NCBI RefSeq assembly: GCF_024661895.1
Contig: NZ_CP102453.1
Span: forward strand, 1,240,001-1,304,000
Length of the DNA stretch: 64,000 nucleotides
Reading direction: 5' to 3'
Source of the DNA: Fundicoccus culcitae
GTDB taxonomy: Bacteria > Bacillota > Bacilli > Lactobacillales > Aerococcaceae
Shown one piece after another: positions 42,338 to 61,108 of this stretch; within the stretch, counting starts at the first letter, position 1, and each line of letters starts with the position of its first letter. Made by a program: the position numbers and the translations under genes. The notes below the pieces were generated by a model, which did no database searches, was not told the DNA's origin, and was given only the letters and a program-made list of their open reading frames with translations.

Positions 42338-43897
42338 CTAAAATTTTTCATTACTCTTACTTCGTGATATTTCATAAATAACGTTTAGTAATCCCTTAAA
42401 ATCATTGTGAAAGTCGTTTGAATCAATCGAAACTAAAGGCCATGAATAATCATAGTATAAAGCATCTATATCCTCCAAAACATACAAATCTATTTCTTCA
42501 GCAGAAAAATTTCTTCCTTCATATAGCTCTATTGGATATATATTTCCTAATATATCTGGATTTAGAAAATTAACAAGCATTTGTTCGATGTTCTCAGCAG
42601 AGAGAATTCCATGATTACTTGATACTAAAATATTAACAGTAATAGATTTTTGAAAAAGATCATACTTATTAAGAAGAATAAGAAAATTTTTATTGAGTTT
42701 TTTTAGAAGAACATCTGGTACTTTCGTATTATAATCATCATACATTATTTTTTTGAAAATATTCGACATAAAAGTGGCAGTTTCTTTATATTTTTCATTA
42801 TTCATAAAATACAATTTACTTTTTTCTCCAAAATTCAAATTTATATTAAATTTAAGTTGAACAACTATTGGTAATAAACTACATAATAATTGTTCATATA
42901 GTTGATTATTGATGTCATTATCAATTTTAATTGTATTTGATAAAACAGATAATAATTTAGAAACAATATCAACAATACTATTCCATATGAATGAATACTC
43001 TTTGCTAAAATCTATATCCGTTGTTAAATCGCGATGGGTAAGTAAAAGTATTGCAAATGCATAGACTTCTTCATCATCAAATACATGTTCATAATAATGA
43101 GAAAGTTTTTTAAAAATAATTGTAGAAATAGAAACAACAGTCTTAAATTCCTTAATATTGCTTATCGTTTTTTCATCTAGTGATAAATTATACCCAGCTA
43201 GTTTTCTATTTTTTTGAAGAATTAAATAGCGTGATAATATTTGAGTTACAAAATCGTTAACTGAAAAATTATTATTGCGAAGTGTAGCTAATAGTATATA
43301 TCTTGTATTCTTAATTTCAGTTATATCGTTTTCAAAATAATTATAAAATTCTTTAATATTACGTGTATACTCTACTTTATGGAAGTGGATTTGAAACAAA
43401 TATAACATAACCAATCGAATAGAAAACTCACTTCCAACAATTTTCGAACCACAATTAGGCTTGGAAATTAATTTTAATTGGTACAAATCTAACAAATCTC
43501 GATAATAATTAATTGCCTCATTGACAACTTTCTTAGATATATAAAATTTATCGCTAATATCTTCAATCTTAAAATAATCTTTTTGAGTAATTAAATATTG
43601 CATTATTTTAATATGTTCTGTTTTCAATATTTCATTATTTGTATGTAATAAAGATTCTCGAATTACTAGCTGATAAAGTGTTTTATTAAAAATATCAATG
43701 TCATTTACTTCAATCCAATAACCTACTCCTCTTTTAGATTTAAGAACTCCACCATTTTCTTGGACTAGTAAAGCTACCTTCTTCATGTCATATTTGATAG
43801 TTCGGACACTTCTTTCTAATATCTTTGCTAAGTATTTAGTTGTTAATGGTCTATTACTATCAGCTAACAAGTAAAATATCAACTCTTCTCTATTCAT
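42338..43897 (-). CDS. PRD-domain transcription regulator (BglG/MtlR-like activator)
   Basis: I start at ATG 43897, which AAAGGAAG precedes; six extra upstream codons lie on the ribosome site. The 519-residue product has an N-terminal HTH_11 domain (REELIFYLLADSNRPLTTKYLAKILERSVRTIKYDMKKVA) and a second winged-helix region. Two PRD-type helical regions follow, and the C-terminal part resembles an EIIB-like segment. Such regulators sense PTS phosphorylation. It is divergent from the deacetylase/PTS operon, which it probably activates. The palindrome at 43927-43946 lies in the shared promoter region. Confidence 0.82.
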   Translation of the reverse strand: MNREELIFYLLADSNRPLTTKYLAKILERSVRTIKYDMKKVALLVQENGGVLKSKRGVGYWIEVNDIDIFNKTLYQLVIRESLLHTNNEILKTEHIKIMQYLITQKDYFKIEDISDKFYISKKVVNEAINYYRDLLDLYQLKLISKPNCGSKIVGSEFSIRLVMLYLFQIHFHKVEYTRNIKEFYNYFENDITEIKNTRYILLATLRNNNFSVNDFVTQILSRYLILQKNRKLAGYNLSLDEKTISNIKEFKTVVSISTIIFKKLSHYYEHVFDDEEVYAFAILLLTHRDLTTDIDFSKEYSFIWNSIVDIVSKLLSVLSNTIKIDNDINNQLYEQLLCSLLPIVVQLKFNINLNFGEKSKLYFMNNEKYKETATFMSNIFKKIMYDDYNTKVPDVLLKKLNKNFLILLNKYDLFQKSITVNILVSSNHGILSAENIEQMLVNFLNPDILGNIYPIELYEGRNFSAEEIDLYVLEDIDALYYDYSWPLVSIDSNDFHNDFKGLLNVIYEISRSKSNEKF

Positions 43898-43926
43898 AAT
43901 AGCACTTCCTTTCAATTATTATATCC

Positions 43927-44034: not shown

Positions 44035-44832
44035 ATGGATTTATTATTTCAATCGGATGATTTTGGTATAACAGAAGCAGTAACACTTGGTATTGTTAAG
44101 GGGATAGAAGAGGGACTTATTAGAAATACAGGACTATTTGTAAACATGAAGTCATCAAAATTTGCTGCATCATTTATTCCAAAATATCCTGAATGTTGCT
44201 TTGGTTTAGATATAAATTTGGTAGCTGGCAAGCCCATTAGTGATCCAATTAAAATACCTAGTTTAGTTAATGACGATGGTCTATTCATAAGCTCTATTGA
44301 AAGGTTTAAAAATGAATATAAAAGTATTGACAATGATTTATCAATTGAATTCAAAAATGAACCATATAAGTATGAAGAAGTTTTGATTGAAATGGAAGCA
44401 CAAATACAGGAATTTATAAACTTAGTCGGAAGGAAACCAGAGTATATTCATCCCCATTCATTAGTTACTCCTACTACAATAAAGGCGTTTAAAACATTAT
44501 CAAAAAAATATAATATTATTTTTACTATGGATTTTCTAAAAGAAATAAACATCACATTTTTACCAACAGATTGGAATATTAAACCAGTTTTTAAATTAGA
44601 AGATCAATTTCAAACAGATGTTACAAAGCGTGTTTTAAAACAATTAGAAATAACAAAAGATAAAGATAAAATCGCATTGATATGCCACTGCGGATATATT
44701 GATTCAGATTTATTAAAAGTATCTTCATATTCAATAATAAGAGCGAAAGATTTAGAAATGGCATTATCAATTGAAATGATTGATTATATTTCAGAAAATA
44801 AAATTAGGTTGGTAACTTATAGAAATATTTAA
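44035..44832 (+). CDS. ChbG/YdjC-family carbohydrate deacetylase
   Basis: A 265-residue protein of the YdjC-like family, which removes an N-acetyl group from phosphorylated chito-oligosaccharides. Visible marks are the N-terminal QSDDFG (metal-binding Asp), GLDINLV in place of the usual GLH, and HPHS (about 143). AAAAGGGGAG precedes the ATG. It is the first gene of a five-PTS/deacetylase operon. The missing His in the GL-x motif (GLDINL) is odd and may alter metal binding. Confidence 0.85.
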   Translation: MDLLFQSDDFGITEAVTLGIVKGIEEGLIRNTGLFVNMKSSKFAASFIPKYPECCFGLDINLVAGKPISDPIKIPSLVNDDGLFISSIERFKNEYKSIDNDLSIEFKNEPYKYEEVLIEMEAQIQEFINLVGRKPEYIHPHSLVTPTTIKAFKTLSKKYNIIFTMDFLKEINITFLPTDWNIKPVFKLEDQFQTDVTKRVLKQLEITKDKDKIALICHCGYIDSDLLKVSSYSIIRAKDLEMALSIEMIDYISENKIRLVTYRNI

Positions 44833-44864
44833 TTTTTATCAGATTAGTTTAGGGTGGTGATTTT

Positions 44865-45278
44865 ATGCTGAAGTTATTTTTAGCATCACATGGTAGATTA
44901 GCAAGCGGAATGGAAAGTTCAGTAAATGTCTTATTAGGAGGGGTTTCAAATTTAACTATTTTTGACGCATATTTAGATGAAAAAAATATTCATGAAGTAT
45001 TGAATAGTTTTTTTGAAAATATAAATGAAGAAGATCAAGTCATAATGCTATCTGATTTATTAGGTGGAAGCGTTAATCAAGTGATGTATACCTATTTAAA
45101 CAAAAAAAATACTAAATTGATATCCGGAATTAACTTAGCTATTCTATTAGAATTGTGTATGTATGAAAATCCAATTGATGATGAAAAAATTCTATCAATT
45201 ATTAATGAGGGTAAAAATTCAATACAACTGATTAATAATAGTACAGAATTTAGTGAAATAGAAGATGATTTTTTTTGA
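44865..45278 (+). CDS. PTS mannose-family EIIA component
   Basis: A 137-residue EIIA of the man/gut family. The phosphorylated His is His9 in FLASHGRLASGM, and the fold signature DLLGGSVNQVM is present. It is a stand-alone domain encoded just before EIIB. It receives phosphate from HPr and passes it to EIIB. Confidence 0.93.
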   Translation: MLKLFLASHGRLASGMESSVNVLLGGVSNLTIFDAYLDEKNIHEVLNSFFENINEEDQVIMLSDLLGGSVNQVMYTYLNKKNTKLISGINLAILLELCMYENPIDDEKILSIINEGKNSIQLINNSTEFSEIEDDFF

Positions 45279-45293
45279 TAAAGGAGTGTTAGA

Positions 45294-45788
45294 ATGATTA
45301 AACATTTAAGATTAGATGAAAGACTTATTCATGGTCAAATTGCAATAAAATGGTCAAGAAACTTAGATATAAACCGTATTATTGTTGCTAATGATGAAGC
45401 AGGAACAAACAAAACAATTGAAAGATCCTTAATGATGGCAGCACCTCAAAATTTAAAAGTAGCAATTCAAACTATTGATAAAAGTATTGAAATATTAAAA
45501 GATCCAAGAGCTAAGGATCTTAAAATTTTATTAATTGTTGCTACTCCTCAAGATGTATTAAAAATTATAAATCAAATAAAAGATGTAGATGTGATTAATG
45601 TTGGAAACTATGGACGTATTGCTAAAAAGAAAGAAGGTGAGTCTCGTAAATCTTATGGAAGTAATTTATATGCATATGACGAGGAGGTAGATATATTTAA
45701 GGAAATAATTGCATCAGGAATTAAATGCATTTATCAAACTACTCCAGAAGACAATCCAGAACCTCTTGATAAAGCCTTAAAAATATAG
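45294..45788 (+). CDS. PTS mannose/fructose/sorbose-family EIIB component
   Basis: A 164-residue EIIB. The conserved LRLDERLIHGQI motif carries the phosphorylated His13, and GNYGRI is a family mark. AAAGGAG precedes the ATG. It phosphorylates the sugar entering through EIIC/EIID. Confidence 0.95.
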   Translation: MIKHLRLDERLIHGQIAIKWSRNLDINRIIVANDEAGTNKTIERSLMMAAPQNLKVAIQTIDKSIEILKDPRAKDLKILLIVATPQDVLKIINQIKDVDVINVGNYGRIAKKKEGESRKSYGSNLYAYDEEVDIFKEIIASGIKCIYQTTPEDNPEPLDKALKI

Positions 45789-45800
45789 GAGGATTAAAAA

Positions 45801-46607
45801 ATGACTACAGAAGCGTTATTAGTTAGTATTTTATATTTCATAATCTCATACTTAGATCCCATCTTACTATCATGGCAAGCTGTTAATAGACCAATAGTAG
45901 TAGCACCTTTAGTTGGTTTGGTATTAGGTGATTTTCATACAGGTATATTAATGGGTGCTTCCCTTGAAGCAATATTTATGGGGATTTCAGCTATTGGTGG
46001 TAGTATACCAGCAGATGCAACCATTGCAAGTGTTATATCCGTTTCGTATACAATATTAACAGGTGCAGATATAGAAGCAGGTTTAGCTATAGCAATGCCT
46101 ATAGGAACCGTAATGGCACAAATTTCAGCAGCACTTACTCCAATTTGGAGTTCATTTGCAGTTTATTGGGAAAAATTAGCTGTTAATGGGACTCCTAAAC
46201 AATTTTTAGGACAAAATATTGTATTCTCAATGTTAACTACTCCTCTAATAAATTCTATAATGCTGTTCTTTTCGATTGCTTATGGTGTAGATGGGTTAAA
46301 TAATTTATTAGCCCAATTACCGGCATGGGTCATGAATGGTTTAGTTGCTTCATCAAGTATGATGATAGCGGTAGGTCTAGCTATTTTAACATCGATGATT
46401 TGGGATAATAAGTTAGGTATTTTTTTCTTCGTAGGTTATATATTAGCTGCACGTTTAGGACTTGATGCATTATCAATCGCAATTATAGGACTAGCTATTG
46501 CTATCACAATGTTCTTTACAGATAAAAGTATTATTGACTTAAAAAATTCATTATCAAATATAAATACTAACACAAGTGCAGTTGAGGGGGATGATTTCTT
46601 TGAATAA
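45801..46607 (+). CDS. PTS mannose-family EIIC component
   Basis: A 268-residue membrane permease subunit with about seven helices. The GASLEAIFMGISAIGGSIPADATIAS region is typical of EIIC-Man. AGGAGG precedes the ATG. It forms the channel complex with EIID, whose gene overlaps its 3' end by eight bases. Confidence 0.94.
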   Translation: MTTEALLVSILYFIISYLDPILLSWQAVNRPIVVAPLVGLVLGDFHTGILMGASLEAIFMGISAIGGSIPADATIASVISVSYTILTGADIEAGLAIAMPIGTVMAQISAALTPIWSSFAVYWEKLAVNGTPKQFLGQNIVFSMLTTPLINSIMLFFSIAYGVDGLNNLLAQLPAWVMNGLVASSSMMIAVGLAILTSMIWDNKLGIFFFVGYILAARLGLDALSIAIIGLAIAITMFFTDKSIIDLKNSLSNINTNTSAVEGDDFFE

Positions 46608-47421
46608 TGCAAATAAATTATCAAAAGAAGAAAATAAGATATTAAGACAAATGTTCATTAGATCACATTTAGTTTTTATGTCATTTAATATGGTTAAAAT
46701 GGAAGCAAATGCATTTACAATAACTATGTCTCCCGCTATTGAATCCATCTACGGAGATAATGAAGAAGATAAAAAAGATGCTTATTTGCGATCACAAAAC
46801 TTCTTCAATACACATGCTGTACCATTTAATTTTATTGCAGGGTTAACTTATGCGTTAGAGAAACAAAGAAAAGAAAAAGGTAACATTGATACAGCTACCA
46901 TTGAAAGTATCAAAACTTCATTAATGGGACCAACCGCAGGTATGTTCGATTCTTTATTTTTTAATGGTTTAAGAATAATTGCAGCAGGGATAGCAATTGG
47001 ACTTGCATCACAAGGTAATATTTTAGGAGCTATATTATTTATCCTGTTATATGGCGTCCCTCAATCTATTGCTAAGTGGTTTTTATTAAAATGGGGATAT
47101 GTATATGGCACACCCTTTATAGATTCTGTTTATGAATCTGGTTTAATGAATGCGCTGACAAAAGCTGCGGGAGTTTTAGGGTTAACTATGGTAGGTTCCA
47201 CAGTAGCACAACTAGTCCACTTCCCATTAAATTGGACTATTTCAATAGGTGAAACAGAATTAGTAGTACAAGATGTTTTTAATTCAATATTTCCAGGTCT
47301 TTTAAGTATTATTTTAGTGTTTGTTTTAGTTTATTTGATTAAAAAAGGTTATCGTCCAACTACACTAATAATTGGAATCATTGCCTTAGCAATGATTGGA
47401 GCTCTTTTAGGGATTTTCTAA
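46600..47421 (+). CDS. PTS mannose-family EIID component
   Basis: The start is most likely TTG 46600, since AGGGGG lies 9 nt upstream and the ATG at 46591 is too close. The 273-residue product has the family opening RSHLVFMSFNMVKMEANAF, the SLMGPTAGMFDSLF region, and C-terminal helices. It is the second membrane subunit of the transporter. Confidence 0.93.
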   Translation: MNNANKLSKEENKILRQMFIRSHLVFMSFNMVKMEANAFTITMSPAIESIYGDNEEDKKDAYLRSQNFFNTHAVPFNFIAGLTYALEKQRKEKGNIDTATIESIKTSLMGPTAGMFDSLFFNGLRIIAAGIAIGLASQGNILGAILFILLYGVPQSIAKWFLLKWGYVYGTPFIDSVYESGLMNALTKAAGVLGLTMVGSTVAQLVHFPLNWTISIGETELVVQDVFNSIFPGLLSIILVFVLVYLIKKGYRPTTLIIGIIALAMIGALLGIF

Positions 47422-47469
47422 ATTTAATCGCTCTATTTTTAATAAACTTATAATCAGAGGTGAGGTATT

Positions 47470-48639
47470 GTGTATATTAAATCAGATAAGATATATACTG
47501 AATCTGGTGTAGTGAAAGGTTATTTGAATATTGAAGATGGTAAAATAAAAAATATATTAAGTTCAGATGAGAAAGTTGATGATTTCCATGATTTCTCAAC
47601 ATATCGAATTATACCTGGTATTTTTGATACTCACATACATGGTGTTATGGGATATAATCTCATGAATAAAACCCCTGATGTGATATCAGAAATAAAGGGG
47701 TTTTTAAAAGGTATATCTGCTCATGGAGTTACCTCAGTATTACCAACTGCAAATCCTGAGATTTTTAAAGATCTTGTTGCTGTGTCTCGGATGAGTATTG
47801 ATGGTGCAAAAATTATAGGGATTCATTCAGAAGGACCATATCTAAATAGAGTTGGTGAAAAGGGGATTGATGAGGGTCACCCAGATATTAGTCTAGACTA
47901 TATACAAGAAATGATTAGTAATTGTGAAGGTATGTTAAAATTAGTTGGAATGGCTCCTGAACTTCCAAACAGTAAACAAGCAACAGAGTATTTATTAAAT
48001 CATGGGGTAAGAGTTGCTTTCACTCATAGTAATGCAAATTTTGAAGAAGCAATGAATGCATTTAAAAACGGAGTGAGTATTTCCACACATACTGCTAATG
48101 TAATGACTGGTATACATCATAGGGATGTTGGAGGTTTAGGAGCAAGTTTACTAGCACCTAATGTGGAGTGCGAAATAATTTGTGATGGTCTTCATGTTTC
48201 TTTTGAAATGTTAGAAATAATGTTTAGAATAAAGTCTTATGATAGATTTATAATGATTTCTGACAGTACTCACCTGGCTGGTGCTCCTATAGGTCAATAT
48301 GAATCAATGGGTTTAACTATAAATATAACTGATGATGGTTTTGCTAAAACGGATACCGGAAGACTAGTTGGTTCTACTAAATCTATTATGTATGGTATTA
48401 AAAATCTGGTAGAGAAAATGAACATACCTTTAGAAATAGTTCTCAATATGGCTTGTCTGAATCCAGCACGAACATATGGTGTTGATCGAAAAAAAGGATC
48501 ACTAGTCGTTGGTAAAGATGCTGACTTTGTTATTATTGATGATGAATATAGTGTAGTTTATACTTTTTCTGAAGGTGAAGTTATATATGACGCTTCAACT
48601 GATAAAGATTTATTCAATACAAAAATGTTAGTAAAATAA
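47470..48639 (+). CDS. nagA: N-acetylglucosamine-6-phosphate deacetylase
   Basis: The start is GTG 47470 with GAGGTGAGG upstream. The 389-residue amidohydrolase has the metal motif FDTHIHG, Glu in HSEGPYLN, substrate/metal His residues in FTHSNA and HTANVMTGIHHRD, and the catalytic Asp in MISDSTHLAG. It makes glucosamine-6-phosphate and acetate from GlcNAc-6-phosphate. As last gene of the PTS operon it shows that the imported sugar, and MurNAc products of the neighbouring operon, feed into GlcNAc-6-P. The ligand HSEGP is complete. Confidence 0.94.
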   Translation: MYIKSDKIYTESGVVKGYLNIEDGKIKNILSSDEKVDDFHDFSTYRIIPGIFDTHIHGVMGYNLMNKTPDVISEIKGFLKGISAHGVTSVLPTANPEIFKDLVAVSRMSIDGAKIIGIHSEGPYLNRVGEKGIDEGHPDISLDYIQEMISNCEGMLKLVGMAPELPNSKQATEYLLNHGVRVAFTHSNANFEEAMNAFKNGVSISTHTANVMTGIHHRDVGGLGASLLAPNVECEIICDGLHVSFEMLEIMFRIKSYDRFIMISDSTHLAGAPIGQYESMGLTINITDDGFAKTDTGRLVGSTKSIMYGIKNLVEKMNIPLEIVLNMACLNPARTYGVDRKKGSLVVGKDADFVIIDDEYSVVYTFSEGEVIYDASTDKDLFNTKMLVK

Positions 48640-48932: not shown

Positions 48933-50072
48933 CTAATTAGGTCTTGTAACATTCCCCAACACAACCTTCTCTTTAGCCCCTGTTGCCCCAGGCACATTCG
49001 AAGGCTTCCGATGCAATGTCTCATTACCCAAAATCACAAAAGCCACCGCTTCTTTTGAATCAGAAGAGAATCCTTTTTCTTCTTGAGTAAATACGTCAAT
49101 TTCAGGAATTAATTCTTTAATATATTCCACCAAAGTTAAATTATGAACCCCACCACCAGCTAAAATGATCTCATTCAAATTATACTTAGGAATAATAAAC
49201 TCACGGTAACTATAGACAATTGAATAGGCAGTAAACCATGTTAAGGTGGCAATTATATCTTCTGGAGCATAGTTATTATACGTTTCTATTAATTGCTTAG
49301 TATACTCAATTCCAAAGACTTCTCTACCCGTCGATTTAGGCGGAACCATCTTCAAATAGGGGTGATCCCTTAACTCATCAACCAACTCAATAATCAAATC
49401 GCCACTCGCAGCGACAGCTCCACCTTTATCAAAACTCTCATCATACAAAATTTCCATAGCCGCATTGATCATCATATTTCCCGGACCCGTATCGAATGCA
49501 ACAACATCTTCAATCTCGCCACCTGCTGGAATAACCGTAACATTCCCAATCCCACCAATATTTTGCAAAGCGATCGTTTTTACAGCCGATTGATACAAAA
49601 CATATTCACTATATGGAACCAAAGGAGCGCCCTCACCGCCAGCAGCCATATCCATTGTCCGAAAATTACTCACAACCGGACAACCGCATTGGTACGCAAT
49701 CACAGCACTTTCACCTAATTGGAGCGTACTTGCAACTAACCCATCTCGTTCATGTGGAATATGATAAACCGTTTGCCCATGACTCGCTACAAAACCTAAT
49801 TCTTCCGAAGCTATCCCATAATTCTTGCAAATATTTATAACAGCATCAGCATACCATTTGCCCAATTCAAAATTTAATGAGCAAACCTCAGCAATACTTA
49901 CTGGTCTGTTTTCAGCTACTTTCTTAACTAAATCTCGTAACTTCATAGGATATTCAAATGTTTCGAAGGCTAACTCTTTAATTTCTGTATCCACACCAGT
50001 TCCTTTAACTTCACACAACACGGCATCTAACCCATCCAATGATGTTCCGGACATTAGCCCAACAGCTAACAT
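48933..50072 (-). CDS. anmK: Anhydro-N-acetylmuramic acid kinase
   Basis: A 379-residue protein. The AnmK/ASKHA ATP motif GLMSGTSLDGLDAV is at residues 5-18, HGQTVYH is in the middle, and FDTGPGNMMINA carries the catalytic Asp. AAAGGAGG precedes the ATG. It phosphorylates and opens 1,6-anhydro-MurNAc to MurNAc-6-phosphate, the substrate of MurQ. Its place in the MurNAc operon supports peptidoglycan recycling or scavenging. Confidence 0.95.
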   Translation of the reverse strand: MLAVGLMSGTSLDGLDAVLCEVKGTGVDTEIKELAFETFEYPMKLRDLVKKVAENRPVSIAEVCSLNFELGKWYADAVINICKNYGIASEELGFVASHGQTVYHIPHERDGLVASTLQLGESAVIAYQCGCPVVSNFRTMDMAAGGEGAPLVPYSEYVLYQSAVKTIALQNIGGIGNVTVIPAGGEIEDVVAFDTGPGNMMINAAMEILYDESFDKGGAVAASGDLIIELVDELRDHPYLKMVPPKSTGREVFGIEYTKQLIETYNNYAPEDIIATLTWFTAYSIVYSYREFIIPKYNLNEIILAGGGVHNLTLVEYIKELIPEIDVFTQEEKGFSSDSKEAVAFVILGNETLHRKPSNVPGATGAKEKVVLGNVTRPN

Positions 50073-50105
50073 AAGGACATCCTCCTTTCAATTCTTAAAT
50101 AAATA

Positions 50106-50957
50106 TCACTGCTTTAAATTATCAATAATTTTTCGAGAGGCGACTAAACTTTGAAGCGTATCATCAAAATTATCCTTAGCAACGCCATAATATAGTAGAT
50201 CAGTAATAACAAATGTTGCATTTCTCGAAGAAATAGTACCAAGACGTAAGTTAGTTTCTTCAACAGGAATATATAAATTAAAATCGGCAATTTGCGACAA
50301 TGATGTTTTAACATCGTACTTAGTGATGGCAATGACCGGTGTGCCAACTTCTTTGGCTTTCTCTGCTGCGTATAAAACGACATCCGTTTTACCAGAGTAA
50401 CTAACTGCAATTACAATATCATCAGGGGTTAAATTGGCTAATTGAGCTAATAAAATATGCGAATCATCATGAAAAAAGACCGTACGCCCAATCCTTGATA
50501 ATTTTTGCATTAAGTCATTGCACATAATGGCGCTCCCACCAATACCAATAATAAAGATTCGATTACTTTTATTAATCGCATCGACCGCTTCTGACATTAA
50601 TTTAATATTTAATAAATTGTATGTTTTTTCCATAATTGACATGGAAATATATTGTACTTTTTTTGTTAACACTTCAAAGGAATCTCCCGCATCAATAAAT
50701 ACATTCATCAATTGATTTTCTTCCGGTTTTTCAACCGTATCAGAAGCTAGATCAACTTTTAAAGCAGTAAAGCCTTTATAACCTAATTTCTTTGAAAACC
50801 TCACCCATGAACTAGCAGATGTTTTAGTCAAATCTGCTAGTTCATGAGTAGATGAGTCCAAAACTGATTCACGATTATCTAAAATGAAGTCGGCAATTTT
50901 CAATTCAGTCTCGCTAAAAGAATCATACAATTCTCTAATCCTTGTGGTACAACTCAT
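50106..50957 (-). CDS. MurR/RpiR-family regulator
   Basis: A 283-residue protein. The N-terminal HTH_6 domain (SETELKIADFILDNRESVLDSSTHELADLTKTSASSWVRFSKKLGY) is followed by a SIS domain (IFIIGIGGSAIMCNDLMQKLSRIG and AVSYSGKTDVVLYAAEKA). Such regulators repress MurNAc operons and respond to MurNAc-6-phosphate. It is encoded between mupG and anmK. The long inverted repeat directly upstream is a candidate autoregulatory site. Confidence 0.9.
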   Translation of the reverse strand: MSCTTRIRELYDSFSETELKIADFILDNRESVLDSSTHELADLTKTSASSWVRFSKKLGYKGFTALKVDLASDTVEKPEENQLMNVFIDAGDSFEVLTKKVQYISMSIMEKTYNLLNIKLMSEAVDAINKSNRIFIIGIGGSAIMCNDLMQKLSRIGRTVFFHDDSHILLAQLANLTPDDIVIAVSYSGKTDVVLYAAEKAKEVGTPVIAITKYDVKTSLSQIADFNLYIPVEETNLRLGTISSRNATFVITDLLYYGVAKDNFDDTLQSLVASRKIIDNLKQ

Positions 50958-50971
50958 GATATCACCTCATC

Positions 50972-51044
50972 ATTTAATTTTGTATTTAACCAACACAACC
51001 TACTCAATCCTTTTATCTAATTGTACATAAATACAAAATTAAAT
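50972..51044. promoter_or_regulatory. 16-bp inverted repeat upstream of the MurR-like gene
   Basis: ATTTAATTTTGTATTT (50972-50987) is repeated inverted at 51029-51044, 41 bp apart. It may be a pair of operator half-sites or form a long hairpin. Confidence 0.5.
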
Positions 51045-51058
51045 TCAAAACGTGGATA

Positions 51059-52144
51059 TTATTTTAATCTAAATTTTTGCCAAGGTTTTATTTCATCGAG
51101 AATAAATACCTCTGCTTCTTTAATACGTCCTACAACATTACTATTACCACTATTTTTCATATCATTTAATGCAATTTGTAATTCACCGGCATAATGTCCG
51201 TAGTAACTAGATTCAATAACAATATCGCCTCTATGAATGGTATCGGGTGTGTTGAAACGTTCAAAATGATGACCTTTGTATTTAACTCTACTTTGAGTCG
51301 AACGAATAATATTTTCACTTTGATCCCCACGATTAACATGTAATTCTTCAAACAAAATTTTTCGTTCTGTTTCAGGTAAACCATCAACGACTTCGACATC
51401 AAATGTGACTAAACTTAAATCCAAATTGCTTAAACTAGCTAGTTCAGCATCAGTCGGATAACAATTTGAAATGATAATATCATCTACTAGGTTCATCGCT
51501 AAGTAATGTTTAACCTGTACATCTAAAGGTAAGTGGCGATGCATCTCTAAAGTAGGTAACCCTTCAGTAACCGGCCAAGGCCCAAAAGTAGAATCATTTT
51601 GACTAGTTACAAAAGCTGCAGTCCGCAAACCATATTGTTTAAACCGCTTCGTACTTTTTTCAAAGTAGTCTAATCCTAATCCACTATAGTTATGAGGATA
51701 AAAATTATGACACGCGATTAAATTATAAACATTAGGTTGATAATCCATAATCGTATCAATCGTATGAACATTGTTACTCATGTTGATCTCAATAGATAAA
51801 TCATATGGGTTGTATGTCATTAAAGCTTCTTCAGCTCCAGTAAATCCTACATCAAGCCTAAGTCCATCTGCTTGAATCTCTTTAAAGAATCCTAATTCTT
51901 TATAACTGATATCTAACGCTTCAAAAATCCGTGGTGCCACATCAACAATGACTTCAAAGCCTTTACTTTTTGCATAACTATTAACTAATTTAAATTCTTC
52001 TTTTACTTCCTCTTTGTCTTTTTCAACTGACAACAGGCATGAAAAAACACGAGTAAAACCAGCTTCAGCCGCCTTATCAATATAAGCAAATAAATCTGCT
52101 TGATTTGACTTCTCTGGATAAATTGAAATTCCTAATTTACGCAT
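51059..52144 (-). CDS. mupG: MupG-family 6-phospho-N-acetylmuramidase (DUF871)
   Basis: A 361-residue protein with the DUF871 TIM-barrel opening MRKLGISIYPEKSNQADLF and the NNVHTIDTIMDYQPN segment. A C-terminal cyclophilin-like domain (about 245-361) follows. In Staphylococcus aureus MupG cleaves MurNAc-6P-GlcNAc to MurNAc-6P and GlcNAc. Here it is encoded after a lactose-family PTS and before MurR and AnmK genes. A hairpin terminator precedes it, so its expression is probably lower than that of the PTS genes. Confidence 0.88.
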   Translation of the reverse strand: MRKLGISIYPEKSNQADLFAYIDKAAEAGFTRVFSCLLSVEKDKEEVKEEFKLVNSYAKSKGFEVIVDVAPRIFEALDISYKELGFFKEIQADGLRLDVGFTGAEEALMTYNPYDLSIEINMSNNVHTIDTIMDYQPNVYNLIACHNFYPHNYSGLGLDYFEKSTKRFKQYGLRTAAFVTSQNDSTFGPWPVTEGLPTLEMHRHLPLDVQVKHYLAMNLVDDIIISNCYPTDAELASLSNLDLSLVTFDVEVVDGLPETERKILFEELHVNRGDQSENIIRSTQSRVKYKGHHFERFNTPDTIHRGDIVIESSYYGHYAGELQIALNDMKNSGNSNVVGRIKEAEVFILDEIKPWQKFRLK

Positions 52145-52178
52145 TATTTTATTTCACTCCTAGATTGTATTTTTAAAA

Positions 52179-52198
52179 AGCCCTGTAAATACAGGGCT
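52179..52198 (-). terminator. Internal terminator between celB-like and mupG genes
   Basis: AGCCCTGT pairs perfectly with ACAGGGCT over 4 nt. On the minus strand it is followed by TTTTTAAAA. Confidence 0.75.
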
Positions 52199-52207
52199 CT
52201 CACTAAT

Positions 52208-53566
52208 TTAAGTTGTTTCAACAGTTTCAGGTTCAACCTGTTCTTCTGCTAATAATTGATTATCATAAATTCTAAAGAATGGATAATACAAAGCAATTGA
52301 AAGGATAATTAGTAACACATTTAGTACTATAGCCCGCCAATCATTTCCTGTAGCTAAAAATGCACCAATTGGTCCAGGCAAAGTCCACGGAGCATTCGCT
52401 ACCACTGGATTTACCCATCCCCATGAAGTCGCAAACCAAGCAATAATACCATTAAATAATGGAATAACAACAAACGGAATCATCAACACAGGGTTTAATA
52501 CGATTGGAACACCAAAGATCATAGGCTCATTGATATTAAATATCGCTGGAATAAGTGATGTTTTACCTAAAGTGCTTCCATAAGATGATTTAGAGCGCCA
52601 TGCAAGTAGAATGGCTAAACCTAAAGTTGCACCGGAACCACCAATCCACACAAACCATTGATAGAATGGTTCAGCAGCTATATTTTGAATAGCTTCACCT
52701 GCAACATATGCAGTCGTATTTTCCTCCAATAAAACTAACCAAAGAGGACGCGCTAACGATCCAACAATTGAAGCACCGTGAATACCAAATACCCAGAAAA
52801 AGCCTGTTAAAAAGATGATTAATAAAACCGAAGGTAGCGTATCTGATGCAGAGATTAATGGTGATACAATTATAGCAACAATGCCATGAACATCAATTTC
52901 TAAGAAATATGTGATTGTAGCAACTAATAATAATACAATGGCAGTTGGTGTCAAAGATTCAAATGAACGAGCAACAGAAGCGGGTACTTGTGATGGCATT
53001 GAAATTTTAAAGCCACTTTTATCTGTAAACCGATATATCTCAACCGCTAAGAAAGCTGATAAAATACCTATAAACATCCCACCTGATCCTAGGTTAGCCA
53101 TTGGTAAATGAAAACCAGTAGGTACAGCAGCAATATATTCAGCTAATTCTACATTATTTGCAGCCAATTGTTGGATTGACTCTGAAGCTGCTGGGATTGA
53201 CGTTGGTACGATAGTTAATAAAAAGGCTAGTTCAGATAATATCGCACCAGACAAACCATCTAAATCATACGATTTTGCTAATGAATAACCAATTCCAAAA
53301 ACAGCATACAATGTCATAATGTACATTGAAACACGGTATGGTAATAAGATTTTAGTTTGATGTTGCAGGATCCATTGAGTAAAGGCCCAATCAGATGGTA
53401 GTGAATTTGGTAAGAATGCGATTACCATAAACATTGAAGCGACAATAATAATCGGCAAAGTTGAAATAATCCCGTCACGAATCGCACGTAAATGGCGTTG
53501 CTCAGCTAATTTTGCCATAGGTGTTGATAGTTTTTCATCTAAAAATGTTGCTATTTTATCAAACAA
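52208..53566 (-). CDS. PTS lactose/cellobiose-family EIIC component
   Basis: The start is TTG 53566, with GGAGG about 9 nt upstream. The 452-residue product has about ten hydrophobic helices. The family motifs INEPMIFGVPIVLNPVLMIPF and GIHGASIVGS are visible. It is the membrane permease of a PTS whose EIIA and EIIB are separately encoded in the same operon. From the operon the substrate is probably a MurNAc-containing disaccharide or MurNAc, rather than cellobiose. Confidence 0.93.
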   Translation of the reverse strand: MFDKIATFLDEKLSTPMAKLAEQRHLRAIRDGIISTLPIIIVASMFMVIAFLPNSLPSDWAFTQWILQHQTKILLPYRVSMYIMTLYAVFGIGYSLAKSYDLDGLSGAILSELAFLLTIVPTSIPAASESIQQLAANNVELAEYIAAVPTGFHLPMANLGSGGMFIGILSAFLAVEIYRFTDKSGFKISMPSQVPASVARSFESLTPTAIVLLLVATITYFLEIDVHGIVAIIVSPLISASDTLPSVLLIIFLTGFFWVFGIHGASIVGSLARPLWLVLLEENTTAYVAGEAIQNIAAEPFYQWFVWIGGSGATLGLAILLAWRSKSSYGSTLGKTSLIPAIFNINEPMIFGVPIVLNPVLMIPFVVIPLFNGIIAWFATSWGWVNPVVANAPWTLPGPIGAFLATGNDWRAIVLNVLLIILSIALYYPFFRIYDNQLLAEEQVEPETVETT

Positions 53567-53618
53567 TTATTTTTTCCTCCTAACTTTTTAAAACGACAAT
53601 GAACATCCATTAATATAA

Positions 53619-53936
53619 CTATTCGAAAATCTCACCTGCTTCTTTTTGAATTTGTTGTAATAAAAATTTACCACCTATTGGAGAATAACCTTTTGGATTA
53701 ATTAACAAACATGGCACACCAACAGCATCTGCTTGCCCTTTTAAAACATCAAATCGATGACGTATTTGTGGAGCCACTAATCCTAAAGCATAACCTTTCT
53801 TTATTTCATCTTCAAAAGCTTGAGAACTAACTTCTTGAACAGTCATATCAATTCCAGCATCCTTTGCGGCATCACTTAATGATTTTGCTGCAATCGCGCT
53901 AGACATCCCAGCTGAACACGCTAATAGTACTTTCAT
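53619..53936 (-). CDS. PTS lactose/cellobiose-family EIIB component
   Basis: I start at ATG 53936, with GGAGG upstream; five extra upstream codons overlap the ribosome site. The 105-residue product has the phosphorylated Cys7 in LLACSAGMSS and the ALGLVAPQIR strand. It phosphorylates the sugar at EIIC. Confidence 0.92.
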   Translation of the reverse strand: MKVLLACSAGMSSAIAAKSLSDAAKDAGIDMTVQEVSSQAFEDEIKKGYALGLVAPQIRHRFDVLKGQADAVGVPCLLINPKGYSPIGGKFLLQQIQKEAGEIFE

Positions 53937-53956
53937 TTTCCATACCTCCAAATTTT

Positions 53957-54265
53957 TTATAAATAAATACCTAAGCCAAACAAAAAGAACTCAATGATAA
54001 AAATAAACAACGAACTGATACCTAACAGCACCCAAAAACTTGAACCAATTCTTTTTTCTGTTTCAATAAAACAACAAGCATACGCAATCGTGGCGCCAAT
54101 TAATAATGAACTTAAAATCAATACCAACCATTGTATCCCTGGTGAAAAGCGTTCTAAGAGAAAAGGAACGGCAAATAATACGATAAAAGTAACCCCTAAT
54201 ATTAAGAACGAGCTTTTAAAGCCAATTTTTGGCATATTCGTATCGTTTTTCATTTTTTCTTCCAT
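53957..54265 (-). CDS. Small three-helix membrane protein in the MurNAc operon
   Basis: A 102-residue protein (start ATG 54265, or ATG 54253 after GGAAG) with three predicted helices (about 18-37, 44-64 and 78-100) and a cytosolic-looking CCFIETEKR loop. No family is recognised. It lies between EIIB and EIIA genes, so it is probably linked to the transporter. Such an extra membrane protein inside a lactose-type PTS operon is unusual. Confidence 0.7.
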   Translation of the reverse strand: MEEKMKNDTNMPKIGFKSSFLILGVTFIVLFAVPFLLERFSPGIQWLVLILSSLLIGATIAYACCFIETEKRIGSSFWVLLGISSLFIFIIEFFLFGLGIYL

Positions 54266-54278
54266 CAGTTAATCGACC

Positions 54279-54602
54279 TTACTTATTTTCTAGTTCATTC
54301 ACACGTTTATTTAATTTGATAAAATAATCTGCTAATGAACGAACTTCCATAGATGTCATCAAATGATCTTGCGCATGCACAAAGAGAACAGTCACATCAT
54401 GATTTTTACCCGCAGCTTCTTCTTGAATTAAATTAGTTTGAACTTGATGAGCTGTTTTCAAATATGCATCAGCTTCCACCAACAATTCGTCTGCTTTTTC
54501 GTAATTACCTTTTTCAGCTTCCATTATCGCTTCGTATGCCAAACCTTTTGCATTTCCGCCATTACTAATAATTTCAAAAATAATCTGTTCCATTTCTTCC
54601 AT
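54279..54602 (-). CDS. PTS lactose/cellobiose-family EIIA component
   Basis: I start at ATG 54602, after AAAGAG; a GTG 9 bp earlier is possible. The 107-residue helical bundle has the phosphorylated His near 76 in FVHAQDHLMTS and the usual SGG/NAK start (ISNGGNAKGLAYEA). It donates phosphate to the EIIB encoded two genes downstream. Confidence 0.93.
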   Translation of the reverse strand: MEEMEQIIFEIISNGGNAKGLAYEAIMEAEKGNYEKADELLVEADAYLKTAHQVQTNLIQEEAAGKNHDVTVLFVHAQDHLMTSMEVRSLADYFIKLNKRVNELENK

Positions 54603-54638
54603 GTTTATCACTCTTTCTCTGTTATTTCATTTATTTCA

Positions 54639-55421
54639 TTAACTATTTTCAACTGCACGACTAATGAATCCTTTTGCTGTTACTAATTTAGTTTTAGCCT
54701 CCTCCATACTTTCACCTGTAAGAATCATGACAATAGCAAGTTTTACATCTTTATTTGCAATTTCAAGATATTCATCTGCTACTTCTTCACTACAATCCGT
54801 TGCATCCATAATAATTCTCTTTGAACGGGCAACTAATTTTTCATTCGTTGCTTGCACATCGACCATTAAATTCTGATATGTCTTACCAATTCCAATCATA
54901 GATGCAGTTGATAACATATTTAAAATTAATTTTTGTGCTGTTCCAGCTTTTAATCTAGTTGATCCAGTTAATACTTCAGGTCCACAATCAACTTCTATAG
55001 CAATCTGACTATATGAGCTAATAAGTGAATTTATATTACATGCCAATGAGACTGTGTTTGCTCCAACTTCATTAGCATACATTAACCCTCCAACAACATA
55101 AGGCGTCCTACCACTCGCAGCAATCCCTACCACCGTATCATTTGCTTTTAAATCAAGGGCTTCCAAATCAGCTTTCCCTAATTCTTTCGAATCTTCTGCA
55201 CCTTCCACAGCTAATTTAATTGCTGAATCACCACCCGCAATCAATCCTACGACCATTTCAGGTGGCACCCCAAATGTAGGAACACATTCCGCTGCATCTA
55301 AAACACCCAGTCTTCCACTTGTTCCTGCACCCATATAAATTAATCTTCCATTACTATTAAATGACTCAATAATTTTATTCACAGCTTGTTCAATCACAGG
55401 AAGCACCTTTTCTACTATCAT
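54639..55421 (-). CDS. murQ: N-acetylmuramic acid 6-phosphate etherase, N-terminally truncated
   Basis: A 260-residue SIS-fold protein. It begins at [19 protein letters not shown], a position that is about 40-45 residues into other MurQ proteins, which are about 300 residues. Remaining motifs are intact: [31 protein letters not shown] and [19 protein letters not shown]. No in-frame ATG, GTG or TTG exists upstream before a stop, and no ribosome site precedes ATG 55421. MurQ cleaves the lactyl ether of MurNAc-6P to GlcNAc-6P. The gene heads the MurNAc operon. It may be a functional short form or a 5'-truncated gene. Confidence 0.85.
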
Positions 55422-55451
55422 TTTTATGTTTAAATATATATGAATTTTCGA

Positions 55452-55465
55452 TGTAATCGCTTGCT
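55452..55465 (+). promoter_or_regulatory. cre-like sequence near the murQ start
   Basis: TGTAATCGCTTGCT fits the cre consensus except at two positions. It lies about 35 bp before the murQ start. Confidence 0.35.
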
Positions 55466-55488
55466 CACTAAATTGATTATAGCAGAAA

Positions 55489-55534
55489 GAAATATTATTT
55501 CAACTAATTTCTATTTTTTATAGAATATTATTTC
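55489..55534. promoter_or_regulatory. Two dyad sites before murQ (candidate RpiR/MurR operators)
   Basis: GAAATATTATTTC (55489-55501) and GAATATTATTTC (55523-55534) are 34 bp apart in the murQ promoter region. They have the TTTC/GAAA symmetry common for RpiR-family sites. Confidence 0.5.
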
Positions 55535-55640
55535 ATTTTTTAAAGCGTATACATATGTTGTGATATTTGAGTCCTTATTTGTTGGACTTTAAGTCTCCTG
55601 GTATTTAGAGAATCCTGAAAGAAATATTAGAATAAAAAAC

Positions 55641-55733: not shown

Positions 55734-58617
<2,884 letters not shown>

Positions 58618-58722
58618 TTTTTATCCCCCAATTAAAATAAATAATAAATTAATATATTGCGCGCATAATATATTAAGGTTATTAAAATGTTGAATGATAT
58701 AATCGAACATTCCTATTACATC
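58618..58722. other. 105-bp spacer between licT-like and EIIBC genes
   Basis: It contains a 10-bp perfect stem (TTAATATATT with AATATATTAA around GCGCGCAT). I see no T run after it and no clear antiterminator site. Confidence 0.4.
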
Positions 58723-59559
58723 TTAGTTTTTATATCCTTGTCTAGTACATAAACGATTAATATGTAACATCAGATATAACAATTCTTCCTCTTCTAAATA
58801 CCAGTTAAATGATTTAAGCAAATAATCTCTAATTTCAAGCGAACAATTATAAGCTCTTGGATAATTCTCTGCTATTGATTGAAACATATCAAAATTCTTC
58901 GTTGTTATCATTTCGTTTTTTACGATTCTTTCAAATAAATACTCTAAGTGAGAAGCAAATCTAGAAAAATTAAATGAAGCTTTATCGATTTCTAATCCCA
59001 TGTAATTTTCAATTATCTCAACTATTTGATCTACAATTTTTTCACTAGATACTTGTTTCTCTTCGGTTTGTTCGTTTATTTCTGAATTTATAATATGCAT
59101 GGCTATTCCATATACTTCATCTTCGGGAAGCTTTATTTTTAGTTTTTTTTCGATGAGTTTTACAGCATACTCTCCAACTTCAACTTCTTTAGGATTAAAA
59201 TGTTTTAAATCATATTGCGATGAAAACTTTAATAACATTCCACTATTATTTCTTTGAATAGCAAATTGAATATGATCTGCTAAAGTGAATACTAAATTCG
59301 GATTTAAATACGAATCAACGATTATTTGAGTATATGTAACAATTACTCCAGTAATCTCAAAAATTTCTTCTGAGATAACATTTAACAGACCAAAATACCG
59401 CTGATCTATATTATAATATGTTTTGGTGATTTTATTTAAATCCGTTAATACATAAGGAGGTGTTTTAAATCCAATACCCTTTCCGAATGCAACTACTTCA
59501 TTACCATCGTTATCAATACAAATAGCAACATTATTATTTATATTTTTAATTACTTTCAT
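58723..59559 (-). CDS. BglG/LicT-family transcription antiterminator
   Basis: A 278-residue protein. The N-terminal RNA-binding CAT domain (MKVIKNINNNVAICIDNDG and ALVF/VVAFGKGIGFK-like segment, residues 1-55) is followed by two PRD domains with their regulatory His residues (for example TLADHIQFAI and ELLYLMLHINRL). It would bind a RAT hairpin in the leader of its own operon and prevent early termination. GTTAGGAG precedes the ATG. The ISL3 element ends about 50 bp upstream, inside what looks like the leader. Confidence 0.93.
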   Translation of the reverse strand: MKVIKNINNNVAICIDNDGNEVVAFGKGIGFKTPPYVLTDLNKITKTYYNIDQRYFGLLNVISEEIFEITGVIVTYTQIIVDSYLNPNLVFTLADHIQFAIQRNNSGMLLKFSSQYDLKHFNPKEVEVGEYAVKLIEKKLKIKLPEDEVYGIAMHIINSEINEQTEEKQVSSEKIVDQIVEIIENYMGLEIDKASFNFSRFASHLEYLFERIVKNEMITTKNFDMFQSIAENYPRAYNCSLEIRDYLLKSFNWYLEEEELLYLMLHINRLCTRQGYKN

Positions 59560-59764
59560 TATGCTAACTCCTAACTATGCATAACAGTTTACGGCTTATA
59601 AGCAAAAAAACTCTTCGGTGGGCACACTAAATAAATGGCTCAAGAATTTTTGGTGTTGGTGAGAGAAATCTCACTGACACCTTTTTATATGTAAATATAT
59701 GAAAAAGCCAGTGAATTCCTATATAATTAAGTCACTACTCAAAATCATAGATAGGAGAATTCAC

Positions 59765-61108
59765 TTGGCTAACACTCATTATATCGCAAATTTACTTAAT
59801 ATTACAGACGAAAGAATCGAATTTTCTGATACAATCACCCAAGAAATGAAACGGAATGTCTGTTGTAAAGTGATTGAAGGTCGATTGTCATATCCATTAA
59901 AAGCTTGTTTAAATTGTGGTGCTATCAACCAATCCACAGATGATATGATTAAATATGGGTTTGATACATCAACCATTACCTTAACTCATATTAATTTCCA
60001 ACCGTTACTCCTTAGACTAAAGAAACAACGCTATCGCTGTAAACATTGCTTAACAACATCCACTGTAACAACTTCCTTGGTGGATAAAGGTTGCTTTATT
60101 TCAAACGATATTAAGCGTACAATCGCCATGGAATTAACTCAAGTACAATCTATGAAATTAATAGCCCAACATCTATTTGTCTCACGACATACTGTGTCTA
60201 CTCAACTGAAACGAGCTGGGAGTTCACTCGCTGCTCAAAAACATTATCTACCAGAGCACCTAGGAATCGATGAGTTCAAATCAGTGAATAGTGTTACCCA
60301 ATCCATGAGCTGTATCTTAATGGACACCCATTCTCATACTTTATTGGATATTCTACCGGATCGAACGCAAAATGCCTTACGGGATTACTTTATGCGTTTC
60401 TCATACGAAAGTCGACAAAAGGTAAAGACGGTCACAATGGACATGTATGCGCCATATTATCAATTCTTACAACAGATTTTTCCGAAAGCGAAGATTATCA
60501 TCGATCGATTCCATTTGGTTCAATTACTCAATCGAACACTAAATAGAGAACGCGTACGAGTGATGAATGAGCTAAGGTATAGTAGACCCAGAGACTATAC
60601 GAAGCTTAAACAACAATGGAAACTCATTCTAATGAATCGAGAGGATTTAGATTTCACCGCCTACCAAACCCATCGGTTATATGATGGACTAGTCACTGAA
60701 AAAAGCATGGTAAACTATTTACTCAGTCTTGATAAACGATTTGAACAAGTTTATCATTTAATGAACGACCTTAAGTCAGACATTGCACAACATAATTACA
60801 CGGCATTTGAACATGATTTATATGAAACACGAAAGTATCAATTACCTCGAAAGGTAAGAACAACGATTCAAACCTTACATCGTTATTTACCAGCAATTAA
60901 AAACAGTTTAAATTATACGTTATCTAATGGTATTATCGAAGGGACTAATAATAAGATAAAAAATATTAAACGAAGTGGTTATGGCTATCGTAATTTTTCA
61001 AACTTAAGATATCGTATATTAATCACACAAAATCTCATCAAAAAGGACAAAGAAATCCGGCCATTATTATTTAAAGATGAAATAAGTAATAAAAAAAGAA
61101 TTGCTTAA
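59765..61108 (+). CDS. ISL3-family transposase
   Basis: I start at TTG 59765 because AGGAG lies 6 nt upstream and the text MANTHYIANLL is the family start; the open frame begins 66 bp earlier. The 447-residue protein has zinc-finger motifs CLNCG and CKHC, a helix-turn-helix region (SMKLIAQHLFVSRHTVSTQLKR) and the DDE catalytic domain. Visible acidic motifs are GIDEFKS, TMDMYAPYY and NGIIEGTNNKIKNIKR. It is complete and uninterrupted. Confidence 0.92.
   Translation: MANTHYIANLLNITDERIEFSDTITQEMKRNVCCKVIEGRLSYPLKACLNCGAINQSTDDMIKYGFDTSTITLTHINFQPLLLRLKKQRYRCKHCLTTSTVTTSLVDKGCFISNDIKRTIAMELTQVQSMKLIAQHLFVSRHTVSTQLKRAGSSLAAQKHYLPEHLGIDEFKSVNSVTQSMSCILMDTHSHTLLDILPDRTQNALRDYFMRFSYESRQKVKTVTMDMYAPYYQFLQQIFPKAKIIIDRFHLVQLLNRTLNRERVRVMNELRYSRPRDYTKLKQQWKLILMNREDLDFTAYQTHRLYDGLVTEKSMVNYLLSLDKRFEQVYHLMNDLKSDIAQHNYTAFEHDLYETRKYQLPRKVRTTIQTLHRYLPAIKNSLNYTLSNGIIEGTNNKIKNIKRSGYGYRNFSNLRYRILITQNLIKKDKEIRPLLFKDEISNKKRIA

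Follow-up and report, generated by a model that had tools for sequence, protein, structure and literature searches.

Which sugar is served by a phosphotransferase system (PTS) of the lactose family when its genes stand among those for the breakdown of N-acetylmuramic acid (MurNAc)? The question is raised by an operon in a 64,000-nucleotide stretch of the Fundicoccus culcitae genome (hereafter the window; NZ_CP102453.1, positions 1,240,001 to 1,304,000), a genome assembled as one contig of 3.22 Mb. Peptidoglycan recycling by PTS in Gram-positive bacteria is known mainly via MurP and MupG, for disaccharides with MurNAc as the first sugar, and no description of the present operon was found in the titles, abstracts and passages of open-licence literature. 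A first, sequence-only reading had proposed a lactose-family PTS in a muramic acid operon with AnmK and MurQ, which matches to family models for EIIA, EIIB, EIIC, AnmK and MurQ bore out.

A lactose-type PTS in an operon with MurQ and AnmK

Eight genes, all on the minus strand, run from 55421 to 48933:

murQ, 54639..55421, minus strand: MurNAc-6-phosphate (MurNAc-6P) etherase cut short at its N-terminus, at the head of the operon (TIGR00274, 355.8 bits, cut-off 302, from model position 36)
EIIA, 54279..54611, minus strand: lactose/chitobiose family (PF02255, 118 bits, 1.6e-34; an alternative start near 54602 is possible)
SMP, 53957..54265, minus strand: small three-helix membrane protein (SMP) of 102 amino acids (no Pfam or NCBIfam match)
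EIIB, 53619..53951, minus strand: lactose/chitobiose family (PF02302, 8.9e-11; a TTG start is listed, an ATG near 53936 is likelier)
EIIC, 52208..53566, minus strand: lactose/chitobiose family (TIGR00410, 366.8 bits, cut-off 236)
GH170 gene, 51059..52144, minus strand: predicted GH170/DUF871 6-phospho-glycosidase of the ChbE/BBB07 side (PF19200, 308 bits; PF05913, 131 bits)
Regulator gene, 50106..50957, minus strand: RpiR/MurR-like regulator (PF01418 and PF01380)
anmK, 48933..50072, minus strand: anhydroMurNAc kinase (NF007142, 549.7 bits, cut-off 435, full length)

Pfam or NCBIfam models matched seven of the eight proteins, the exception being the SMP. EIIA, EIIB and EIIC all belong to the lactose/chitobiose PTS family, and the sole PDB relative found for EIIC was 3qnq, deposited as a cellobiose-specific EIIC (1.5e-74). 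AnmK was the single match of its kind in the whole genome. The regulator had been called MurR; its membership in the RpiR/SIS family stood, but the MurR equivalog cut-off was missed (146 versus 408 bits).

We propose, with a probability of about 0.56, that this operon encodes a second peptidoglycan-sugar salvage system, working in the reverse register to MurP/MupG on disaccharides that begin with N-acetylglucosamine (GlcNAc), including the anhydro form. The gene content, the homologies, the split within GH170 and the gene linkage described below were observed directly. AnhydroMurNAc, the substrate of AnmK, lacks a free C6 hydroxyl and always occupies the terminal position at the reducing end. 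Because that hydroxyl is missing, a PTS cannot phosphorylate anhydroMurNAc at C6, and for anhydroMurNAc brought in by a PTS the phosphate must therefore sit on the GlcNAc side. The MurNAc-first disaccharide named as substrate by the sequence-only reading found no support. A GlcNAc-first disaccharide ending in anhydroMurNAc best explains why AnmK is in the operon.

In the proposed pathway, the lac-type PTS would import GlcNAc-1,6-anhydroMurNAc (and GlcNAc-MurNAc) and phosphorylate C6 of the non-reducing GlcNAc. The GH170 enzyme would then split the phosphorylated disaccharide into GlcNAc-6-phosphate (GlcNAc-6P) and anhydroMurNAc (or MurNAc), and AnmK, joined in most relatives by a BadF-type MurNAc/GlcNAc kinase, would supply MurNAc-6P. 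This would be turned into GlcNAc-6P by MurQ, followed by NagA, and the SMP would act as an accessory subunit of the EII complex. The substrate, the phosphorylation site, the cleavage products and the role of the SMP are what we infer in this scheme. A breakdown leading to GlcNAc-6P, proposed earlier, is supported at the level of sequence. For GlcNAc-MurNAc, the scheme would call for a MurNAc kinase. A MurNAc kinase of the BadF family is described in Tannerella, and a MurNAc/GlcNAc kinase in Clostridium acetobutylicum (PMC5790795).

The hydrolase lies outside the MupG clade

The window's GH170 protein carries both the MupG_N and the MupG_C domain and had been read as MupG. Nevertheless, it is only 27% identical to the MupG of its own genome and 22-29% identical to MupG proteins, versus 41-42% for ChbE and 42% for BBB07; its best solved relative was 1x7f (2e-108), with 2p0o reaching only 3e-29. 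In a FastTree phylogeny of 184 GH170 proteins (identical proteins were removed before this tree and the MurQ tree described below), a deep branch of 1.06 changes per site with support 100 parted 47 proteins from 137. The smaller side held 44 MurP-linked MupG proteins, two proteins from loci L043 and L063 and one from L058, and the larger side held the window protein, the ChbE orthologues and BBB07. The same split, with support 100/100, was recovered by IQ-TREE under a mixture model with 66 rows, where all 17 MurP-linked MupG proteins fell on one side; four MupG-side rows (L051, L156, L043 and L063) had been left out of this analysis beforehand. Both trees placed the window protein outside the MurP-linked MupG clade.

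Residue patterns followed the trees. At 23 positions the two GH170 sets are conserved (at least 85%) in different ways, and the window protein was of the lac type at all 23; all five ChbE orthologues agreed with the window type at 10 of them. Arg159 and Arg316, near-invariant in MupG (numbering of the genome's MupG), are His in the window protein, and position 93 is Asp in the window protein, Thr in most MupG and Trp in ChbE and BBB07. These residues are leads for acceptor and lactyl sites, not proof. Asp93, His151, Asn227 and His317 mark positions that tell MupG, ChbE and the window clade apart. Judged by its sequence, the window hydrolase is not of the MupG type and belongs to the ChbE/BBB07 side of GH170. 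The paper on MupG itself expects functional divergence of distant DUF871 paralogues (PMC6262408). The genome has four GH170 proteins; two further paralogues, on the ChbE side and 41-42% identical to the window's, lie in other contexts (L033 8901-10004 and L034 7695-8882).

What the relatives on this side act on is informative. In Lacticaseibacillus paracasei, mutants in chbC (lac-type IIC) or chbE (GH170) are reported to fail on diacetylchitobiose (PMC12791066), a sugar that offers no end other than GlcNAc for phosphorylation. The published chb layout, IIC-DUF3284-GH170 with divergent IIB-IIA, was not found in the 22 genomes of the first family sampled and was found in the next family, giving five Lactobacillales loci (IIC in two frames in L238), which we took as ChbE orthologues because their layout matches the published operon. 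The window does not have this layout, as it has no DUF3284 match and all operon genes are on one strand. On plasmid cp26 of Borreliella burgdorferi, a GH170 gene (L199 3601-4698, BB_RS05510), presumably BBB07, lies directly behind the chb PTS IIA and IIB genes, and its product is 42% identical to the window's. By inference, ChbE and BBB07 would both act on a GlcNAc-6P end. BBB07 is annotated as 'alpha3-beta1 integrin-binding protein' and may be a missing phospho-chitobiose hydrolase.

Compared with known systems, the window operon shares with the Staphylococcus aureus MupG-MurQ-MurP-MurR system (PMC6262408) the uptake, here predicted, of a peptidoglycan disaccharide by a PTS, a GH170 phospho-hydrolase, MurQ and an RpiR-type regulator, but the S. 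aureus system has a glucose-type EIIBC (MurP), a GH170 protein of the other clade and the opposite predicted register. The chb operon of L. paracasei (ChbABC, ChbD and ChbE) has in common with it a lac-type PTS, a same-side GH170 and, as predicted here, a phosphorylated GlcNAc end; it differs in having DUF3284 (ChbD) rather than an SMP, divergent chbBA, no MurQ or AnmK (5/5 loci) and diacetylchitobiose as substrate. The Borrelia chb PTS likewise adjoins a GH170 gene, but MurQ, AnmK and SMP are absent from the 8.3-kb stretch examined. Finally, Gram-negative recycling by AmpG, NagZ, AnmK and MurQ (PMC5061867) also splits GlcNAc-anhydroMurNAc before AnmK and MurQ act; where it has AmpG and NagZ, the window operon is predicted to rely on phosphorylating import by the PTS and on a phospho-hydrolase.

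Kinase genes accompany the lac-type operon and not MupG-MurP in the Lactobacillales samples

To describe the spread of the operon, the best 80 of 211 loci from a scan with a GH170 alignment were taken, 57 of them longer than 20 kb. Linkage was counted within 9 kb with models built from the window proteins and their relatives, at cut-offs of 150 bits for AnmK and MurQ, 100 for BadF, 290 for MurP and 15 for SMP; for IIC, 150 bits was used in locus counts and 300 in the count of kinases near IIC and MurQ. The set covers Aerococcaceae, Clostridium, Erysipelotrichaceae, Coriobacteriia (Olsenella, Collinsella and Atopobium), Leptotrichia and others. Near the GH170 gene we found a lac-type IIC in 75/80 loci, a BadF-type kinase in 63/80, MurQ in 56/80, SMP in 55/80, AnmK in 44/80 and MurP in 6/80. 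The loci with AnmK, mostly from Bacillota and some from Actinomycetota, include 38 of the 56 with MurQ, and the claim that AnmK is unusual in such Gram-positive operons was thus not upheld. A kinase stood near 50 of the 54 loci with both IIC (at least 300 bits) and MurQ. Among the four others, L053 has a BadF gene in two weak pieces, L085 ends at a contig edge, and L095 and L097 have MurP nearby.

Within Lactobacillales, 40 MupG loci (close homologues of the genome's MupG, the top scorers) and 40 lac-type loci (spread over 44-70% identity) were picked from longer match lists. MurQ and MurP lie within 9 kb in every one of the 40 MupG loci, and in all of them AnmK, BadF kinases, lac-type IICs and SMPs are missing at that distance, which sets these loci apart from the window operon with its AnmK and SMP. 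Among the window-like loci, 11/40 have a lac-type IIC together with MurQ; AnmK is present in 8 of these, a BadF kinase in 10 and at least one of the two in all 11. The contrast for AnmK (8/11 versus 0/40) gave a Fisher p of 2.6e-7, a value overstated by the relatedness of the loci. This linkage fits the proposed register: kinases stand near the lac-type MurQ loci and not near the 40 MupG-MurP loci, whose PTS makes the MurNAc-6P end.

In Enterococcus cecorum, a lichenan-type IIC is reported in 84/113 and 14/33 genomes and AnmK in 85/113 and 14/33 (PMC13391275), and this near-equal prevalence fits one linked locus. On an Enterococcus gallinarum plasmid, anmK and IIC lie side by side.

Unassigned neighbour proteins of the AnmK loci were clustered, and their domains were then confirmed by Pfam. 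A GHL10 protein was found in six AnmK loci (in two frames in L069) and a SpoIID domain in two; the loci with either or both are L110, L066, L069, L108, L170, L173 and L197. In Fonticella (L110 12310-16518), GHL10 and SpoIID are joined in one 1402-aa protein. After removal of eight loci from assemblies represented twice, such a neighbour stood beside 7/65 AnmK loci and 0/111 others (p = 0.0008, kinship of the loci being ignored). Where visible, the starts of these proteins resemble signal peptides as judged by eye. The window has no GHL10 or SpoIID neighbour; the genome gave two partial GHL10 matches (38.2 and 31.9 bits), both away from the operon. E. coli also has a GHL10 match, which we take to be DigH. 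The DigH protein of E. coli is described as degrading denuded glycans and able to release anhydro ends (PMC12288456), and SpoIID of Bacillus subtilis as a lytic transglycosylase (PMC6635528).

A conserved small membrane protein

The extra membrane protein with three helices, noticed from the sequence alone, proved real in two respects: its AlphaFold model was confident (mean pLDDT 88.8; helices at residues 16-40, 45-68 and 75-97), and it is conserved in 55 of the 80 loci. The SMP matched no Pfam or NCBIfam family model, a sequence profile search of the PDB gave no usable match, and neither did a Foldseek fold search of the PDB with the model (best E 4.6). Among its relatives, the commonest Pfam match was DUF1129, in 8/51 with a best E of 0.0016 and none for the window SMP, and NCBIfam matches were scattered. 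The family motif resembles TDYxIPxFxYKSA ... FIExKxGxxKxFW.

SMP homologues were present in 57/70 AnmK loci versus 17/53 lac loci without AnmK. Of 73 SMP copies, 30 lie within 250 bases of both EIIA and EIIB, and most of the rest are near EIIB, EIIC or AnmK; repeated assemblies were kept in these counts and in those for DUF3284. DUF3284, the accessory protein of the chb operon, showed the opposite trend (1/70 AnmK loci versus 7/53 lac loci without AnmK), and the SMP and DUF3284 may therefore be alternative PTS helpers. Three loci in which no SMP was found have another small membrane protein, roughly 100 aa long, beside EIIC (L164 11806-12108, L168 12638-12940 and L179 10591-10950); the L164 copy had no Pfam match.

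A second system beside MurP and MupG, with a truncated murQ

In the sequence-only reading, the lac-type PTS stood in for MurP. A complete mupG-murQ-murP-rpiR operon is, however, present at about 1.067-1.072 Mb on the same chromosome, with a full-length MurQ and a MurP of EIIBC type. The lac-PTS operon is, because of this, a second system beside MurP/MupG and not a substitute for it.

The operon edge had been set at 55540; the murQ frame begins at 55421, and its truncation had been missed. With 260 aa, the window MurQ is shorter than every other member of a 115-protein MurQ set (the next has 295), and its alignment to MurQ models begins only at position 36-48. It also lacks all eight columns that at least 90% of the 115 proteins share within the first 34 residues (L6, T8, E9, N12, D19, N31, E33 and D34, in the numbering of the genome's other MurQ). 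E83 and E114, which we take to be the catalytic glutamates, are both kept as Glu. The missing N-terminus was not found upstream, either in the same frame or in all frames over 1.7 kb, or elsewhere in the genome. In a MurQ tree, the closest neighbour of the window protein is the genome's other, MurP-linked MurQ (71%), and the window protein falls in a supported set of 56 rows, 41 MurP-linked and 13 lac-linked. The operon's own etherase may thus be weak or dead, and since it is truncated, the intact MurQ of the MupG-MurP operon at 1.07 Mb probably performs the last step for the window operon.

A BadF kinase was also sought elsewhere in the genome. PF01869 gave six matches and no clear MurK; two lie in one 1444-aa frame, presumably of the activator type, and one, in a 317-aa frame, is partial and scores 33.4 bits against a cut-off of 31.5.

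Surroundings of the operon

Two features flank the eight genes:

Promoter-like site, 55476..55503, minus strand: TTGAAA-16-TATAAT with TG before the -10 (consensus match only)
nagA, 47470..48639, plus strand: GlcNAc-6P deacetylase (TIGR00221, 239.6 bits, cut-off 225.65)

The promoter-like site lies 55 bases before the murQ frame and, at 11/12, is one of the two top scorers in the window, where such sites (39 found, 35.8 expected) are not commoner than in shuffled sequence. NagA is a plausible next enzyme; its gene is a convergent neighbour behind a mannose-type PTS, outside the operon. It ends a plus-strand run (44035-48639) of a YdjC/ChbG-like deacetylase, a mannose-family PTS (IIA, IIB, IIC and IID) and NagA, which, together with an Mga-type regulator at 42338-43915, probably forms a further system for N-acetyl sugars. 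Neither Rfam models, at their gathering cut-offs, nor a tRNA scan gave any match in the window.

Just upstream of the truncated murQ, a bgl-type operon (GH1, EIIBC and BglG antiterminator) spans 55734-59559. Its GH1 gene (55734-57194) was considered as an operon member and rejected, because it sits with the bgl-type EIIBC and the BglG-type antiterminator. An ISL3 transposase gene follows at 59699-61108, and rearrangement there could have removed the start of murQ.

Weighing the alternatives

Several observations weigh against the GlcNAc-first register. With murQ damaged and no BadF kinase in the cluster, the window copy may not be fully working, and AnmK could serve anhydroMurNAc from another route. 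Across the 80 loci, 18 of the 56 with MurQ have no AnmK, and 6 of the 24 lacking MurQ do have it; in Lactobacillales AnmK occurs in 8 of the 29 window-like loci outside the lac-PTS and MurQ group, all without MurQ. The ChbE orthologues agree with MupG at 5 of the 23 distinguishing positions, and GH1 or GH4 glycosidases, found in some clusters, could be the true hydrolase. Moreover, the two gene sets are not everywhere apart. MurP lies within 9 kb in six of the 80 loci. At L051, a complete lac-AnmK operon adjoins a set of MurQ, MurP and MupG genes, with AnmK 4-5 kb from MupG, and at L078, L095, L097 and L197 the lac-type genes have a MurP-type gene as neighbour. L043 and L063 combine MurQ, AnmK and a second EIIC (214 bits) with a MupG-side GH170 of 344 aa; no MurP passes the cut-off there, and a window-like GH170 adjoins this group. 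These mixed loci show that the register cannot be proved from the linkage of AnmK by itself, though they also fit one cell salvaging both registers. In L043 (2215-11997) and in L063 (1792-12007), a single gene run includes both GH170 types, two EIICs, MurQ, AnmK and a BadF kinase; one operon may here serve both registers.

Could the PTS instead import MurNAc or MurNAc-GlcNAc and phosphorylate MurNAc, with the GH170 protein a true MupG and AnmK a separate convenience? Pfam does label the window protein MupG, MurQ is in the operon, MurNAc-GlcNAc is reported as a proven MupG substrate in S. aureus (PMC6262408), and L043 and L063 place a MupG-side GH170 with MurQ, AnmK and an EIIC of the same superfamily. 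We consider this unlikely, as the window GH170 is outside the MurP-linked clade with both arginines replaced by His, MurP and MupG are already present in the genome, and the linkage of AnmK and BadF (8 and 10 of 11 versus 0/40 each) would be left unexplained. A chitobiose (or cellobiose) PTS with a GH170 phospho-hydrolase, MurQ and AnmK being mere neighbours in amino-sugar catabolism, would agree with the kinship of the hydrolase to ChbE and BBB07, with 3qnq as nearest relative of EIIC, and with a Bacillus coagulans operon, CELO2, which includes a DUF871 (GH170) gene and is reported to have given cellobiose uptake in E. coli (PMC6271610), a result that also counts against the GlcNAc-first reading. 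However, this PTS is repeatedly accompanied, across phyla, by MurQ and one or more MurNAc-type kinases, and the exact chb layout (5/5 loci) is without MurQ or kinase in the stretches examined and has DUF3284 in place of the SMP, which makes this explanation improbable. A broad importer of chitobiose, GlcNAc-MurNAc and GlcNAc-anhydroMurNAc, with extra kinases, GH1 and GH4 sorting the products, would suit the varying GH1, GH4 and BadF content of the loci and the reported handling of a trisaccharide by the PTS^Chb of L. paracasei (PMC12791066). We regard it as quite doubtful, although nothing decisive stands against it and sequence cannot separate it from the GlcNAc-first reading.

Implications for cell wall recycling

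Overall, the operon looks like a widespread but undescribed Gram-positive route for reversed cell-wall disaccharides. If the GlcNAc-first reading is right, a second, common operon would handle the GlcNAc-first disaccharides from muramidases and lytic transglycosylases, the anhydro form included; AnmK would have a role in these bacteria, GH170 would gain a second specificity, one that annotation now often labels MupG, and the PTS would have a newly named accessory protein. A tentative extension, at somewhat less than even odds, is a lineage-wide pathway in Bacillota and Coriobacteriia that would import the lytic transglycosylase product GlcNAc-anhydroMurNAc, with a GH170 6-phospho-N-acetylglucosaminidase replacing NagZ, the PTS replacing AmpG and the SMP as a fourth EII subunit. 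In that case, organisms with both systems, such as this one, would salvage both disaccharide registers.

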